Origin: Cyanobacteria bacterium FACHB-63
GTDB taxonomy: Bacteria > Cyanobacteriota > Cyanobacteriia > Leptolyngbyales > Leptolyngbyaceae
Length of the DNA stretch: 64,000 nucleotides
NCBI GenBank assembly: GCA_014695255.1
Contig: JACJNX010000061.1
Location: forward strand, 124,001-188,000
Direction: 5' to 3'
Of the stretch, positions 40,993 through 44,239 are shown in pieces. The notes beneath the pieces are model-generated. The model ran no database searches and was not told the origin of the DNA. It saw only the letters and a program-made list of their open reading frames with translations. Made by a program: the position numbers and the translations under genes. The stretch's first letter is position 1. Each line of letters opens with the position of its first letter.

Positions 40993-41442
40993 TTGGAACG
41001 CACATTTTTAGCCATCAAGCCCGATGGCGTACAGCGCAAACTCATCGGTGAAATCATTCGCCGCTTTGAAACGAAGGGCTTTACCCTTGTCGGTTTGAAG
41101 TTCATGAACGTGAGCCGTGAACTAGCAGAAAGCCATTACGGAGTTCACCGGGAACGTCCGTTTTTCAGAAGTTTGGTTGAATTCATCACTTCTGGTCCTG
41201 TTGTTGCAATGGTTTGGGAAGGTGATGGTGTGATTGCAGCCGCGCGGAAAGTGATCGGCGCAACCAATCCACTCACTGCTGAGCCGGGAACGATTCGGGG
41301 TGATTTCGGTGCAAATATTGGACGCAACCTGATCCATGGATCGGATGCGCCGGAAACTGCTCAAAGCGAGATTGCGCTTTGGTTTAAGGACGAAGAATTG
41401 GTGAATTGGCAGCCCACCGTGTTGTCTTGGATTTACGAATAA
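40993..41442 (+). CDS. ndk: Nucleoside diphosphate kinase
   Basis: NDK balances nucleoside triphosphates by a phosphohistidine ping-pong. The 149-residue protein shows [14 protein letters not shown] at the start, the nucleotide-binding [16 protein letters not shown] and the active-site [10 protein letters not shown] with His115. The start is TTG at 40993, with GGGAG (40982-40986) six bases upstream; no in-frame ATG would give a full N-terminus. Divergent from speA across about 140 bases. Confidence 0.97.
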
Positions 41443-41492
41443 TCGCAATTGTTGGATCGGCGGCAAATTGTCGATCGTTAACCCGACGAACC

Positions 41493-41522
41493 CGTAGAGA
41501 CGCAATTAATCGCGTCTCTACG
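41493..41522. repeat. GTAGNGACGC hairpin repeat, copy 2
   Basis: CGTAGAGACGC (41493-41503) and GCGTCTCTACG (41512-41522) are perfect 11-base inverted arms around AATTAATC. It lies between convergent ndk and the TerC gene and belongs to the same family as 27581-27626. Short repeats of this type are frequent in cyanobacterial intergenic DNA. Confidence 0.7.
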
Positions 41523-41532
41523 TCGTTGATCA

Positions 41533-42282
41533 TTAAACCGGGTCTTTTTCCGAAATGGGTTCGATTTCGGGTATGGCTTCGCTTTGGGATTGGGCGATCG
41601 CTTCAATCTCCGCGATATCATTCCGCTTAGAAAATCCCCAGGCAAACACGATCGCAACCAGCGTAATCATCAGCCATTCGGGTGGCACAAGCTGATCGTT
41701 CAGCACCCGCAACAGCAATCGAATTCCCACAAATGAAACAGTAATGTACCCTGCGTCTTCGAGGTGCGTGAATTCTTCTAGCCAATTGATAAATAAACCT
41801 GCCATAAACCGCAGCACCACAATCCCGATCGTGCCACCGAGCAGAATCAGCCAAGTTTCTTGAGAAACTGCGATCGCAGTCGTCACACTATCCAGCGAAA
41901 ACGCCAAATCTGTAAAAGCAATTAACGGAATCGCTTGCCATAGCGAAGAAAACCGGGGGGCGTGATGCGCTCCTTCTTCTTTCTCGGCAGAGGTGAAATA
42001 CTGAAATGCCAGCCACAGCAGATAGAGCGCTCCCGCTAACTCAAATTGCCAGTACCCAATGACCCAAGATGCTGCCAAAATCAGCGATATCCGCAAAATG
42101 TAAGCTACCACCAGGCCAAGATTCAAGGCGCGACGCTCTAGTTCTAGGTCTTGCAAACCCTGAGTAATTGCAGCTAGGGCGATTGCGTTATCTGCCGACA
42201 ACACGCATTCCAAGGCAACTAAAACAATTAGAACTAGGAAGGATTGCGGATTGAGCTGGGCAGGAAAATTCAGATCTATCAT
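41533..42282 (-). CDS. TerC-family integral membrane protein
   Basis: A 249-residue protein with seven or so hydrophobic segments. TerC marks are VALECVLSADNAIALAA near the N-terminus and FTDLAFSLDSVTTAIAVSQE in the middle, the two ADN/LDS segments whose acidic residues line a metal path. TerC relatives in bacteria help manganese efflux and metal loading of exported enzymes, and the thylakoid member of plants assists thylakoid protein insertion. The acidic C-terminal tail (EIEAIAQSQ, EIEPISEKDP) is soluble. It reads away from the origin-like region. Confidence 0.9.
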   Translation of the reverse strand: MIDLNFPAQLNPQSFLVLIVLVALECVLSADNAIALAAITQGLQDLELERRALNLGLVVAYILRISLILAASWVIGYWQFELAGALYLLWLAFQYFTSAEKEEGAHHAPRFSSLWQAIPLIAFTDLAFSLDSVTTAIAVSQETWLILLGGTIGIVVLRFMAGLFINWLEEFTHLEDAGYITVSFVGIRLLLRVLNDQLVPPEWLMITLVAIVFAWGFSKRNDIAEIEAIAQSQSEAIPEIEPISEKDPV

Positions 42283-42947
42283 TCCAGAATATTAAAGGGA
42301 CGAGCAGCAGTAATCAGACATCCTATTATCTCTTCTTATGTCTAGATTGGCGACCACCGACCGGAGTATCAGCGTCGATTTTGCTCATATTCTCGATCGA
42401 TTTGCAGGCGCGAAGATAGAGAATACCCAATTCAGCCGCGGGATTTACAGCATAGACTGGGGAGAGCAGAAATCTTAACAAAACTTTACAAAGAGTCGAG
42501 TTTTCCCCAAACTCTCCACAGCCTCTCCACAGATGATCGATTCCTTTTCCACACCTTTTCCACATCGAATAGAAAGTTTTCCACAGGGGATCGGGCTAGG
42601 ATCGTCATTTTCCGGCAGACTGTGGAAAAGTCGAGTGCAACCCTGCTCACCGCTTGAGAATTGCTTAATTTGTGAAGCGACATTAAGAAAAAACGGCTGA
42701 AATGCCGATTCTACCGTTCAGTAATTTTGATCTAGCGACGGATTGTTACGTTTCTTGATGTTGATCTTCTGGCATCGATCGCGCAGAATGTAGCGACTAA
42801 CCGAAAGCGTTCAGCCGAGCCGCGATACAAGATTTCCACAGCCTTGGAGATTGGAAAGAGCGGCCGGACTGGCGTAGATTTCTGTTGCAGATTTTTGCAG
42901 AAGTCCGAGGATTAGCTCACCTACTGGCGATTCATTATTGAGGTTTG
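42283..42947. other. Candidate chromosomal replication origin (DnaA-box cluster)
   Basis: No gene is seen in this 665-base stretch. Exact TTTTCCACA boxes lie at 42545-42553, 42556-42564 and 42577-42585, and one in reverse at 42621-42629. Near matches are TTTTCCCCA (42501-42509), CTCTCCACA (42512-42520 and 42523-42531) and ATTTCCACA (42832-42840). The same-strand boxes start at 42501, 42512, 42523, 42545, 42556 and 42577, an 11-bp register with two gaps and a final step of 21. TTTTCCACA is the known DnaA-box form in Synechococcus. T/A-rich tracts near 42660-42730 could be an unwinding site. dnaA and dnaN are not in the window, which is common for cyanobacterial origins. Confidence 0.7.
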
Positions 42948-43178
42948 ATGGATATGGATAGCAATATCAGTCTTTTTGTTGAAATTCCCGAAGCACTGCA
43001 TCAATCATTCCAGTCGTTTCTCGATTCCCGTCCAGATTGGGATCAAGATCGAGTGATGTCTGCGGCGTTGTCTTTGTTCCTGCTGCAAAATCGCCCAGCA
43101 AATGAACGCCAAACCGATCGTCAGACAGCGCGGATTTATCTCGATTCCATCTTTAAGCGTCCGGTTGAACAGATTTAA
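42948..43178 (+). CDS. Small DUF2811-like protein
   Basis: Seventy-six residues, beginning MDMDSNISLFVEIPEALHQSFQ at the ATG 42948 with GAGG four bases upstream; the ATG at 42954 is an alternative. The sequence IPEALHQSFQSFLDSRPDWDQD then AALSLFLLQN matches, from memory, the short cyanobacterial DUF2811 family, whose layout recalls ribbon-helix-helix or copy-number proteins. Function unknown. It is the first gene to the right of the DnaA-box cluster. Confidence 0.8.
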   Translation: MDMDSNISLFVEIPEALHQSFQSFLDSRPDWDQDRVMSAALSLFLLQNRPANERQTDRQTARIYLDSIFKRPVEQI

Positions 43179-43312
43179 CTGTTTCGATTGGAACCTAGAA
43201 GCAGTGGACTAGAAGTCCGATGCTCTAGCATTCGGTCGAGCATATTCAAGCCTCATTGATTTCCGAATTGATTTCCGAACGATACGTTCCTCTTAACCTT
43301 GTTTGCCTCATC

Positions 43313-44107
43313 ATGCCTTATCAGATTTCTGCGACAAAACTTCAGGCGTACAGTCGCTGTCCCTATGCGTACTATTTGCGGTACGAGCGGCGGCTTACGA
43401 GCAATGATTTCTTCGGTTCAGCAGCGTTGGGAACGGCACTGCATCAAGCGTTGGCAATGGTTCATCGGGACTGGCACTACCACGATTCTGTCCCCGATTT
43501 AGCCTGGGTGCATCGCTGCTGGGAAGAGCATTCGACCGGCTTGACTCCGAACCAGATCGAAGATGGTCGATCGATTCTTGAGCGTTATTACGAGAAGTTC
43601 ATTGTGAATGCTCCGTCGTTACGCCAGCCGTTAGCAGTTGAAGGAAGAATTCAGGCGTTTTTGCGCGTCGAAAGCCTCGAATTCTGTATTACGGGAAGAT
43701 ACGATCGAATCGACTATCTCAATGATGGGTTAGAGCTAATCGATTACAAGTCGAGCCGCGATCTGAAGGTTCCAGAGTCTGATGAGATGGATTTGCAGAT
43801 CGGATTGTATTACCTGGCGTTGGAGCAGACTTATCACCAAAGTTTGAAGTACCTCACCTTGCTGTTTTTGCGAACGGGCGAGAAGGTTCGGTATCGAGCC
43901 ACTCGCAGACATAAAAAGCAAGTGCAAGCGGTGATTTCAGATTTGGCGGTGCGGTTGCGACATGATGAAACATGGGAACCAATACCAGGGAAACAATGCG
44001 ATCGTTGTGCATATTTCCGGTATTGTTCTGCGGTGAATGTTAACCCGGCTCCGTTACCAATAACAGTTAGTGCAACTCCTGAATTGCAGCTTGCATTGGG
44101 ATTGTAG
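43313..44107 (+). CDS. Stand-alone RecB/AddB-like nuclease with Fe-S cysteine set
   Basis: The start at 43313 (MPYQISATKLQAYSRCPYAYYLRY) is used because the family begins with this ISATKLQxYxxCP block. Nuclease residues are His44, Asp131 in ITGRYDRID, Asp144 and Lys146 in LIDYKSS, and the QIGLYYLAL motif (Gln162, Tyr166). Four Cys, Cys16 plus Cys229, Cys232 and Cys238 (C-x2-C-x5-C), form the staple of AddB/Cas4-type Fe-S nucleases. No helicase part is attached, so it is a lone PD-(D/E)XK exonuclease-like protein. It may act in recombination or repair near the origin candidate. Confidence 0.88.
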   Translation: MPYQISATKLQAYSRCPYAYYLRYERRLTSNDFFGSAALGTALHQALAMVHRDWHYHDSVPDLAWVHRCWEEHSTGLTPNQIEDGRSILERYYEKFIVNAPSLRQPLAVEGRIQAFLRVESLEFCITGRYDRIDYLNDGLELIDYKSSRDLKVPESDEMDLQIGLYYLALEQTYHQSLKYLTLLFLRTGEKVRYRATRRHKKQVQAVISDLAVRLRHDETWEPIPGKQCDRCAYFRYCSAVNVNPAPLPITVSATPELQLALGL

Positions 44108-44239
44108 AGTGTTTGGACTGTAGAGTGTTTTGACTATAGATTGCTGCAATGATTACGCTGTGGGATGGTTGTTTCGACCGTCCGTAGTCTTTGCAGATAT
44201 CAAAATTTTACACAGTTAATTTGATTGTGAGTGTGCAAC
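44108..44239. repeat. Intergenic stretch with short tandem repeat
   Basis: The sequence GTAGAGTGTTTGGACT is followed at once by GTAGAGTGTTTTGACT (from about 44105), an imperfect 16-base tandem copy that starts inside the nuclease stop region. Apart from this, nothing regulatory is recognised. Confidence 0.4.

Follow-up and report, generated by a model that had tools for sequence, protein, structure and literature searches.

A DnaA-box array between HLR1-like sites, conserved upstream of DUF2811 in cyanobacteria, as a candidate regulatory element rather than a chromosomal origin

The window analysed here, that is the whole stretch of 64,000 nucleotides (C138:124001-188000), belongs to a cyanobacterial genome of 7.23 Mb in 179 contigs. 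Within it, a cluster of DnaA-type boxes occupies a gene-free setting, as originally described, between a gene for a TerC/YkoY-family membrane protein and a divergently oriented gene for a small protein of the DUF2811 family (Table 1). The next gene on the DUF2811 strand encodes a PD-(D/E)XK nuclease, and further upstream of the array lie ndk, speA and gyrA, whose names are taken from their Pfam domains. A search of Rfam returned no match in 41400-44200 at E values up to 1. A TerC-family gene is also found near DUF2811 and boxes in seven other loci (L050, L058, L062, L063, L075, L078 and L096), and DUF2811 was seen in eight of 71 TerC loci examined with 3-kb flanks.

Table 1. Genes, boxes and sites in and around the array, in coordinates of the window.
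Feature	Position	Strand	Basis or remark
TerC/YkoY-family membrane protein gene, divergent neighbour	41533..42282	-	Pfam domains
Upstream HLR1-like (RpaB-type) site TTAACAAAACTTTACAAA	42475..42492	+	1 mismatch to published consensus; kept in seven genus orthologs
Weak DnaA-type box TTTTCCCCA, first ladder rung	42501..42509	+	one mismatch; conserved in alignment A3
Weak DnaA-type box CTCTCCACA	42512..42520	+	two mismatches; rung -65
Weak DnaA-type box CTCTCCACA	42523..42531	+	two mismatches; rung -54
DnaA box TTTTCCACA	42545..42553	+	exact match
DnaA box TTTTCCACA	42556..42564	+	exact match
DnaA box TTTTCCACA, last forward box, anchor of conserved spacing	42577..42585	+	exact match
Reverse DnaA box	42621..42629	-	exact here; TTTTCCACA or TTATCCACA in seven aligned genus orthologs
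Place of downstream reverse HLR1-like site	42669..42686	-	degenerate here (5 mismatches)
Putative promoter TTGATC-17-CAGAAT, in conserved block	42761..42789	+	inferred from conservation
Box ATTTCCACA, between putative promoter and DUF2811 gene	42832..42840	+	one mismatch; identical in seven genus orthologs
DUF2811 gene, ~74 aa	~42954..43178	+	PF10929, E 5.9e-24; alternative start possible at 42948
PD-(D/E)XK nuclease gene (Cas4/AddB-like), next same-strand gene after DUF2811	43313..44107	+	Pfam domains

The original prediction had described four exact TTTTCCACA boxes, three forward and one reverse, together with four near matches, and all eight were recovered. The forward boxes follow one another in steps of 11, 11, 22, 11 and 21 bp, in agreement with the proposed 11-bp ladder and its shortened last step, and TTTTCCACA is indeed the cyanobacterial form of the DnaA box (PMC4674748). 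Chance was held to be unable to give such a density, and a Poisson estimate bears this out, putting the number of such groupings (four exact boxes in a span of ~85 bp) expected genome-wide at ~2e-8. What is unusual about the boxes of the window is their clustering, their overall number being ordinary: 23 boxes with at most one mismatch were found across the whole window against 21.2 expected, which is no enrichment. Exact boxes number 92 genome-wide, against 56 for the reversed control pattern, and two of them lie within 30 bp of each other at four places, namely on the dnaN side on contig C115, on C117, on C121 and in the array of the window. The phase of the boxes is not an accident of one genome either, because the same rungs recur in 40 aligned elements. 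With the last forward box set to 0, box-like sites occur at -87, -76, -65, -54, -44/-43, -33/-32, -22/-21 and 0, each in at least five of these 40 and chiefly at -76, -65, -54, -43, -32, -21 and 0, and the block from the upstream HLR1-like site to the reverse box is conserved in seven genus orthologs. The 40 anchored elements derive from 46 upstream regions, of which five (L022, L023, L024, L025 and L030) had no exact forward box in range and one (L011) was dropped as a duplicate of L010; in L026 and L027 the second-last box was chosen manually as the anchor.

Neither dnaA nor dnaN lies beside the array, as the original prediction had remarked: dnaN is on C115 and dnaA on C68. A chromosomal origin at this place is not supported, since the usual dnaN-side place in the same genome carries five exact boxes; in a 3.5-kb stretch around dnaA there are none. 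In 55 of 68 cyanobacterial species the predicted oriC adjoins dnaN (PMC4674748), and of the 51 genomes that have box pairs, our own included, 44 have them on the dnaN side. The AT content of the intergenic stretch is 53.8%, against 51.3% for the window, and the richest 50 bp of the array stretch reach 68% AT against 72% at the dnaN cluster, so that no AT-rich stretch clearly stands out. GC skew was sampled 20 kb at a time in four relatives (40 samples for each of G007 and G004 and 20 for each of G020 and G039) and was irregular, with neither a V nor a clear two-arm form; fits of a two-arc model to the four were equalled or beaten by shuffles in 54 of 300, 174 of 300, 327 of 500 and 202 of 500 cases. 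Irregular GC skew has been reported in cyanobacteria (PMC7198777, PMC5987646), and the skew weighs neither for nor against a chromosomal origin here. What stands of the earlier interpretation is that the boxes are of DnaA type, clustered and phased far beyond chance; the chromosomal origin does not find support. In one other genome, G051, a large box cluster (C1:1626-1876) lies near dnaA (C1:382-864) and far from dnaN (C1:3081533), and is likely an oriC separated from dnaN.

The array keeps its position and strand relative to the DUF2811 family. DUF2811 is present in all 58 genomes of a first survey, our own included, and exact box pairs, taken as two exact boxes separated by no more than 30 bp, with pairs within 500 bp merged, are present in 51 of them; the reversed pattern gave none. 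The resulting 154 merged sites in these 51 genomes divide into 57 upstream of DUF2811, 44 upstream of dnaN and 53 elsewhere, a labelling that used 56 of 67 PF02768 rows and left out eleven weaker ones. The DUF2811-upstream sites are spread over 44 genomes at 237-546 bp from the gene, 56 of the 57 in the gene's orientation, and the dnaN-upstream sites fall in 44 genomes, one in each. No exact pair was found at DUF2811 in 14 of the 58 genomes, though some of these have single or weaker boxes; weaker clusters escape this definition of a pair. In seven loci found via TerC (six from Nostocales, one from a MAG), boxes lie 363-469 bp upstream of DUF2811. The element precedes both DUF2811 paralogs, and in seven of nine further DUF2811 loci hemJ is seen downstream of the gene (checked with NCBIfam in one of the seven). 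The second DUF2811 copy of our own genome (L002, C117:113316-113686) is a remnant without its first half, beside which hemJ is intact and four exact boxes are kept. Position, orientation and paralog linkage fit a DUF2811 control region, and the stretch looks like a conserved element that stands upstream of DUF2811 in many relatives, that is, like an old control element.

A third recurring site, with three boxes and few HLR1-like sites, is found among the 53 sites elsewhere, of which ten in other genomes, chosen for their three-box pattern, and the one in our own genome were inspected (L220-L229 and L003:1501-1550, the latter at C121:242571-242620). In seven of the ten loci from other genomes the guaA 3' end is no more than ~400 bp away from it, in L221 the distance is ~1.1 kb, and no guaA was seen in L222 and L223; a guaA profile was applied in L226 and L221 only. 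In L226 the site sits between convergent guaA and DUF3318 genes, and in our own genome beside a DUF3122 gene. It is possible that this third site is datA/DARS-like.

The array upstream of DUF2811 is bracketed by sites that resemble HLR1. They were scored against the Synechocystis consensus (PMC11633204), which some copies match exactly, and are likened to HLR1 by similarity. Such sites with at most one mismatch occur in 22 of the 46 DUF2811 upstream regions against a mean of 0.07 in shuffles, and when up to two mismatches in 750 bp are allowed, 33 of 46 have one against a mean of 2.0, where the shuffles preserved base composition only. Their distances from the last forward box are restricted: a reverse site with at most three mismatches lies at +88 to +94 in 31 of 40 elements (shuffle mean 0.06), 22 of 40 have a forward site with at most three mismatches between -115 and -99 (shuffle mean 0.22), and 18 of the 40 have both. 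The forward sites have two preferred positions, -102 and -113, separated by one turn. Because the 40 sequences are related, these counts, like the P values given below, are not independent tests. In the window itself the forward site is close to the consensus and the reverse site is degenerate (Table 1). At dnaN clusters, sites with at most two mismatches are rarer than at DUF2811 (7 of 29), though shuffles give a still lower mean of 0.97; at third sites they occur in 1 of 11 against a shuffle mean of 0.2.

On the 3' side of the array there is a further conserved block (42690-42820), which includes GCGATCGCGCAGAATGTAGCGACTAACC in most aligned sequences and may be a promoter or leader. TTGATC is kept in nine of ten aligned sequences, and the second hexamer reads CAGAAT in seven, CATTAT in two and CAAGAT in one. 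The TTGATC-17-CAGAAT block may be the DUF2811 promoter; a scan for consensus promoters did not report it.

A wider survey used a DNA profile made from 39 elements, the added copy of the window among them and L230 and L231 left out for poor alignment. The profile matches 137 of 156 genomes of the class. Among the best matches listed, it points to a place upstream of DUF2811, on the same strand and at most 1 kb away, in 104 of 113 genomes, a tally drawn from 150 listed matches, part of the DUF2811 rows and 13 further rows, with DUF2811 rows mostly left out for those genomes in which no profile match was listed. Once 18 training genomes are subtracted, 86 of 95 best listed matches lie upstream of DUF2811, with some of the held-out genomes possibly close to seven named training loci. 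Of the nine exceptions among the 113, six are genomes for which the lists used give no DUF2811 place (among them G060, which has no DUF2811 match), and G098, G042 and G099 have a listed DUF2811 place, yet their best profile match is elsewhere. Since the profile also matches dnaN and third-site clusters, a match alone is no proof of a DUF2811 element; such clusters score at most 43 bits against 111 for the window (25 sources scored).

The 19 genomes without a profile match comprise 15 of the 17 members of one family, f2, the genome G066, and three genomes that have no dnaA (G152, G158 and G164). These last three are genomes of ~3.3-3.8 Mb in which no dnaA match was found. Outside f2, the profile matches 135 of 136 dnaA-bearing genomes and none of the three dnaA-less ones, a comparison that rests on three genomes and whose nominal P of 9e-6 ignores kinship. 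Exact box pairs, present in 128 of the 156 genomes with four hits in all for the reversed control, are likewise absent from all three dnaA-less genomes, and also from 25 of the 153 that bear dnaA. DUF2811 itself is present in 152 of 156 genomes. It is missing from two of the three dnaA-less genomes (G152 and G164) against two of 153 with dnaA (G060 and G159, both drafts), at a nominal P of 0.0015 that again ignores kinship, and the remaining dnaA-less genome, G158, has kept DUF2811 and has no profile match. The 17 sampled members of f2 (1.6-3.0 Mb) all have dnaA and DUF2811, and most keep DUF2811 without a detectable element. Therefore DUF2811 does not always need the element, which speaks against a strict coupling of the two. 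Among 14 control genomes, DUF2811 was found only in S. elongatus.

The partial loss of DUF2811 together with dnaA suggests that the protein is a partner rather than a mere target. As to its fold, a ribbon-helix-helix assignment was considered and found no support: there is no RHH family among the Pfam matches at E values up to 10, and neither a PDB profile search nor Foldseek, queried with a low-confidence helical model (pLDDT 63), backed it. The name DUF2811 was not found in the open literature searched.

How might these features work together? We favour, with a probability of roughly 0.58, the reading that the stretch is a long-range cis-regulatory element of DUF2811, probably bound by DnaA and possibly by RpaB, and not a chromosomal origin. 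What we observe is how the array is built, that it is conserved and linked to DUF2811, and that the three dnaA-less genomes lack it; binding by DnaA and RpaB, the place of the promoter, the direction of regulation and the role of DUF2811 are what we infer. DnaA would bind at the 3' end of the array, where the strong boxes lie, and from there spread along the weak boxes, whose spacing of 11 bp would turn them to the same side of the helix. Such phasing of weak boxes is what cooperative binding of DnaA would call for. The flanking HLR1-like sites, at their fixed distances, would hold RpaB or a relative, and the resulting complex of ~200 bp would signal to a promoter ~180 bp past the last forward box. 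The signal would combine the state of DnaA, and with it replication or the cell cycle, with the light or redox state, and the output would be expression of DUF2811 and a downstream partner, the PD-(D/E)XK nuclease here and hemJ at the second paralog. In S. elongatus, DnaA binding at oriC depends on photosynthesis and drops in the dark at a constant level of DnaA (PMC6478999). HLR1 sites that lie upstream of a core promoter are associated with low-light activation by RpaB (PMC6331805). Given these two effects, it is plausible that DnaA and RpaB would jointly read out light and replication state at such a sequence. Besides the f2 genomes, several points speak against a regulatory reading: the array is far from the putative promoter, at which the scan reports none; the boxes persist beside the decayed DUF2811 copy on C117; two dnaA-bearing drafts are without DUF2811; and HLR1-like sites exceed shuffles at dnaN as well.

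Perhaps the element belongs to a larger, lineage-specific circuit, in which an old element of DnaA boxes between two RpaB-type sites reads light or redox state together with replication state and drives DUF2811, a small core protein that would feed back on DnaA or on initiation. We offer this extension tentatively and consider it rather doubtful. If it were true, loss of dnaA would entail loss of the element, DUF2811 would tend to go too, and the circuit could explain why DnaA is retained in cyanobacteria that replicate without needing it. The role of DnaA in species that keep dnaA without a need for it in replication is a question posed in PMC7198777.

The best of the alternatives, though an unlikely one, is that the stretch is a non-coding DnaA station of the datA/DARS kind, which would titrate, inactivate or reactivate DnaA, DUF2811 being a neighbour or partner and not a simple target. 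Strong and weak boxes flanked by the sites of a second regulator resemble the DnaA sites combined with IHF or Fis sites (PMC4245941, PMC4585315), and what we find is indeed a conserved non-coding box cluster away from the dnaN side with sites for a second protein, as judged by similarity. Such a station would also suit the boxes that persist next to a decayed DUF2811 copy and the third kind of site, with three boxes and few HLR1-like sites, seen 3' of guaA in several genomes. However, the element goes with DUF2811, second paralog included, and the share of the chromosome that separates it from the dnaN cluster ranges between 0.049 and 0.499 (15 loci in nine genomes with a single-contig main chromosome), unlike the distances of datA and DARS from oriC, which are conserved in E. 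coli (PMC4585315).

It is considerably less probable that the array serves as an accessory or alternative replication origin. A DnaA-type array in a gene-free stretch, replication from multiple origins in some cyanobacteria (PMC7198777) and the irregular skew of the four sampled relatives would all accommodate one, but the dnaN-side cluster has more exact boxes and a richer AT stretch (72% against 68% over 50 bp), many genomes have two paralogous copies of the element, and the coupling to a single gene family, DUF2811, is tight. Still less credible is the use of these DnaA-box-like sites by another protein: the HLR1-like sites do suggest a multi-factor regulatory region, but the 9-mer is identical to that at the dnaN cluster, and exact pairs are absent from all three dnaA-less genomes, a point weakened by their absence from 25 of 153 dnaA-bearing ones. 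The main chromosomal origin originally proposed, for all the number and phase of its boxes, is hardly tenable beside a dnaN-side cluster with more exact boxes in the same genome, dnaN-side clusters in 44 of the 51 genomes where box pairs occur, predicted oriCs that mostly adjoin dnaN (55 of 68 species; PMC4674748), the lack of an outstanding AT-rich stretch, the paralogous copies and the coupling to the DUF2811 family.

The regulatory reading bears on how cyanobacteria couple replication to light, and an element that occurs throughout most of the class as sampled offers a defined site and an uncharacterised core gene to test. It also illustrates that box counting alone can mistake such an element for an origin. 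In the open literature, as far as its accessible text goes, we found no report of a DnaA-box/HLR1 arrangement or of a DUF2811 element in work on RpaB together with DnaA, DARS2 in cyanobacteria, DnaA with hemJ, DnaA ChIP-seq in S. elongatus or DnaA boxes at promoters, and in the accessible text of PMC4907049 and PMC4674748 the DnaA boxes concern oriC. Like the oriC beside dnaN in Synechococcus elongatus and Cyanothece ATCC 51142, the array consists of clustered intergenic TTTTCCACA boxes, but it is linked to DUF2811 instead of dnaN in a genome with a separate dnaN-side cluster, and it has flanking HLR1-like sites and weak boxes in an 11-bp ladder. With datA, DARS1 and DARS2 of E. coli it shares the character of a conserved non-coding DnaA-box cluster off oriC that includes sites of a second protein, whereas it is tied to a gene family and not to a chromosomal position, and may have RpaB sites instead of IHF or Fis sites. 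DnaA also binds boxes outside oriC to regulate transcription in other bacteria (PMC7198777). With DnaA-regulated genes of that kind the array shares a box cluster that stands upstream of a gene and is conserved with it; the element described here differs in its length of ~200 bp, its place far upstream of the putative promoter, its pairing with sites of the light-regulator type and its occurrence across much of the sampled cyanobacterial class. The HLR1/RpaB promoters of high-light genes have the same 18-bp motif of two half-sites, of which two inverted copies here bracket a DnaA-box array at fixed spacing. DnaA-box clusters outside oriC were already known; a DUF2811-linked array between HLR1-like sites was not seen in the literature consulted.
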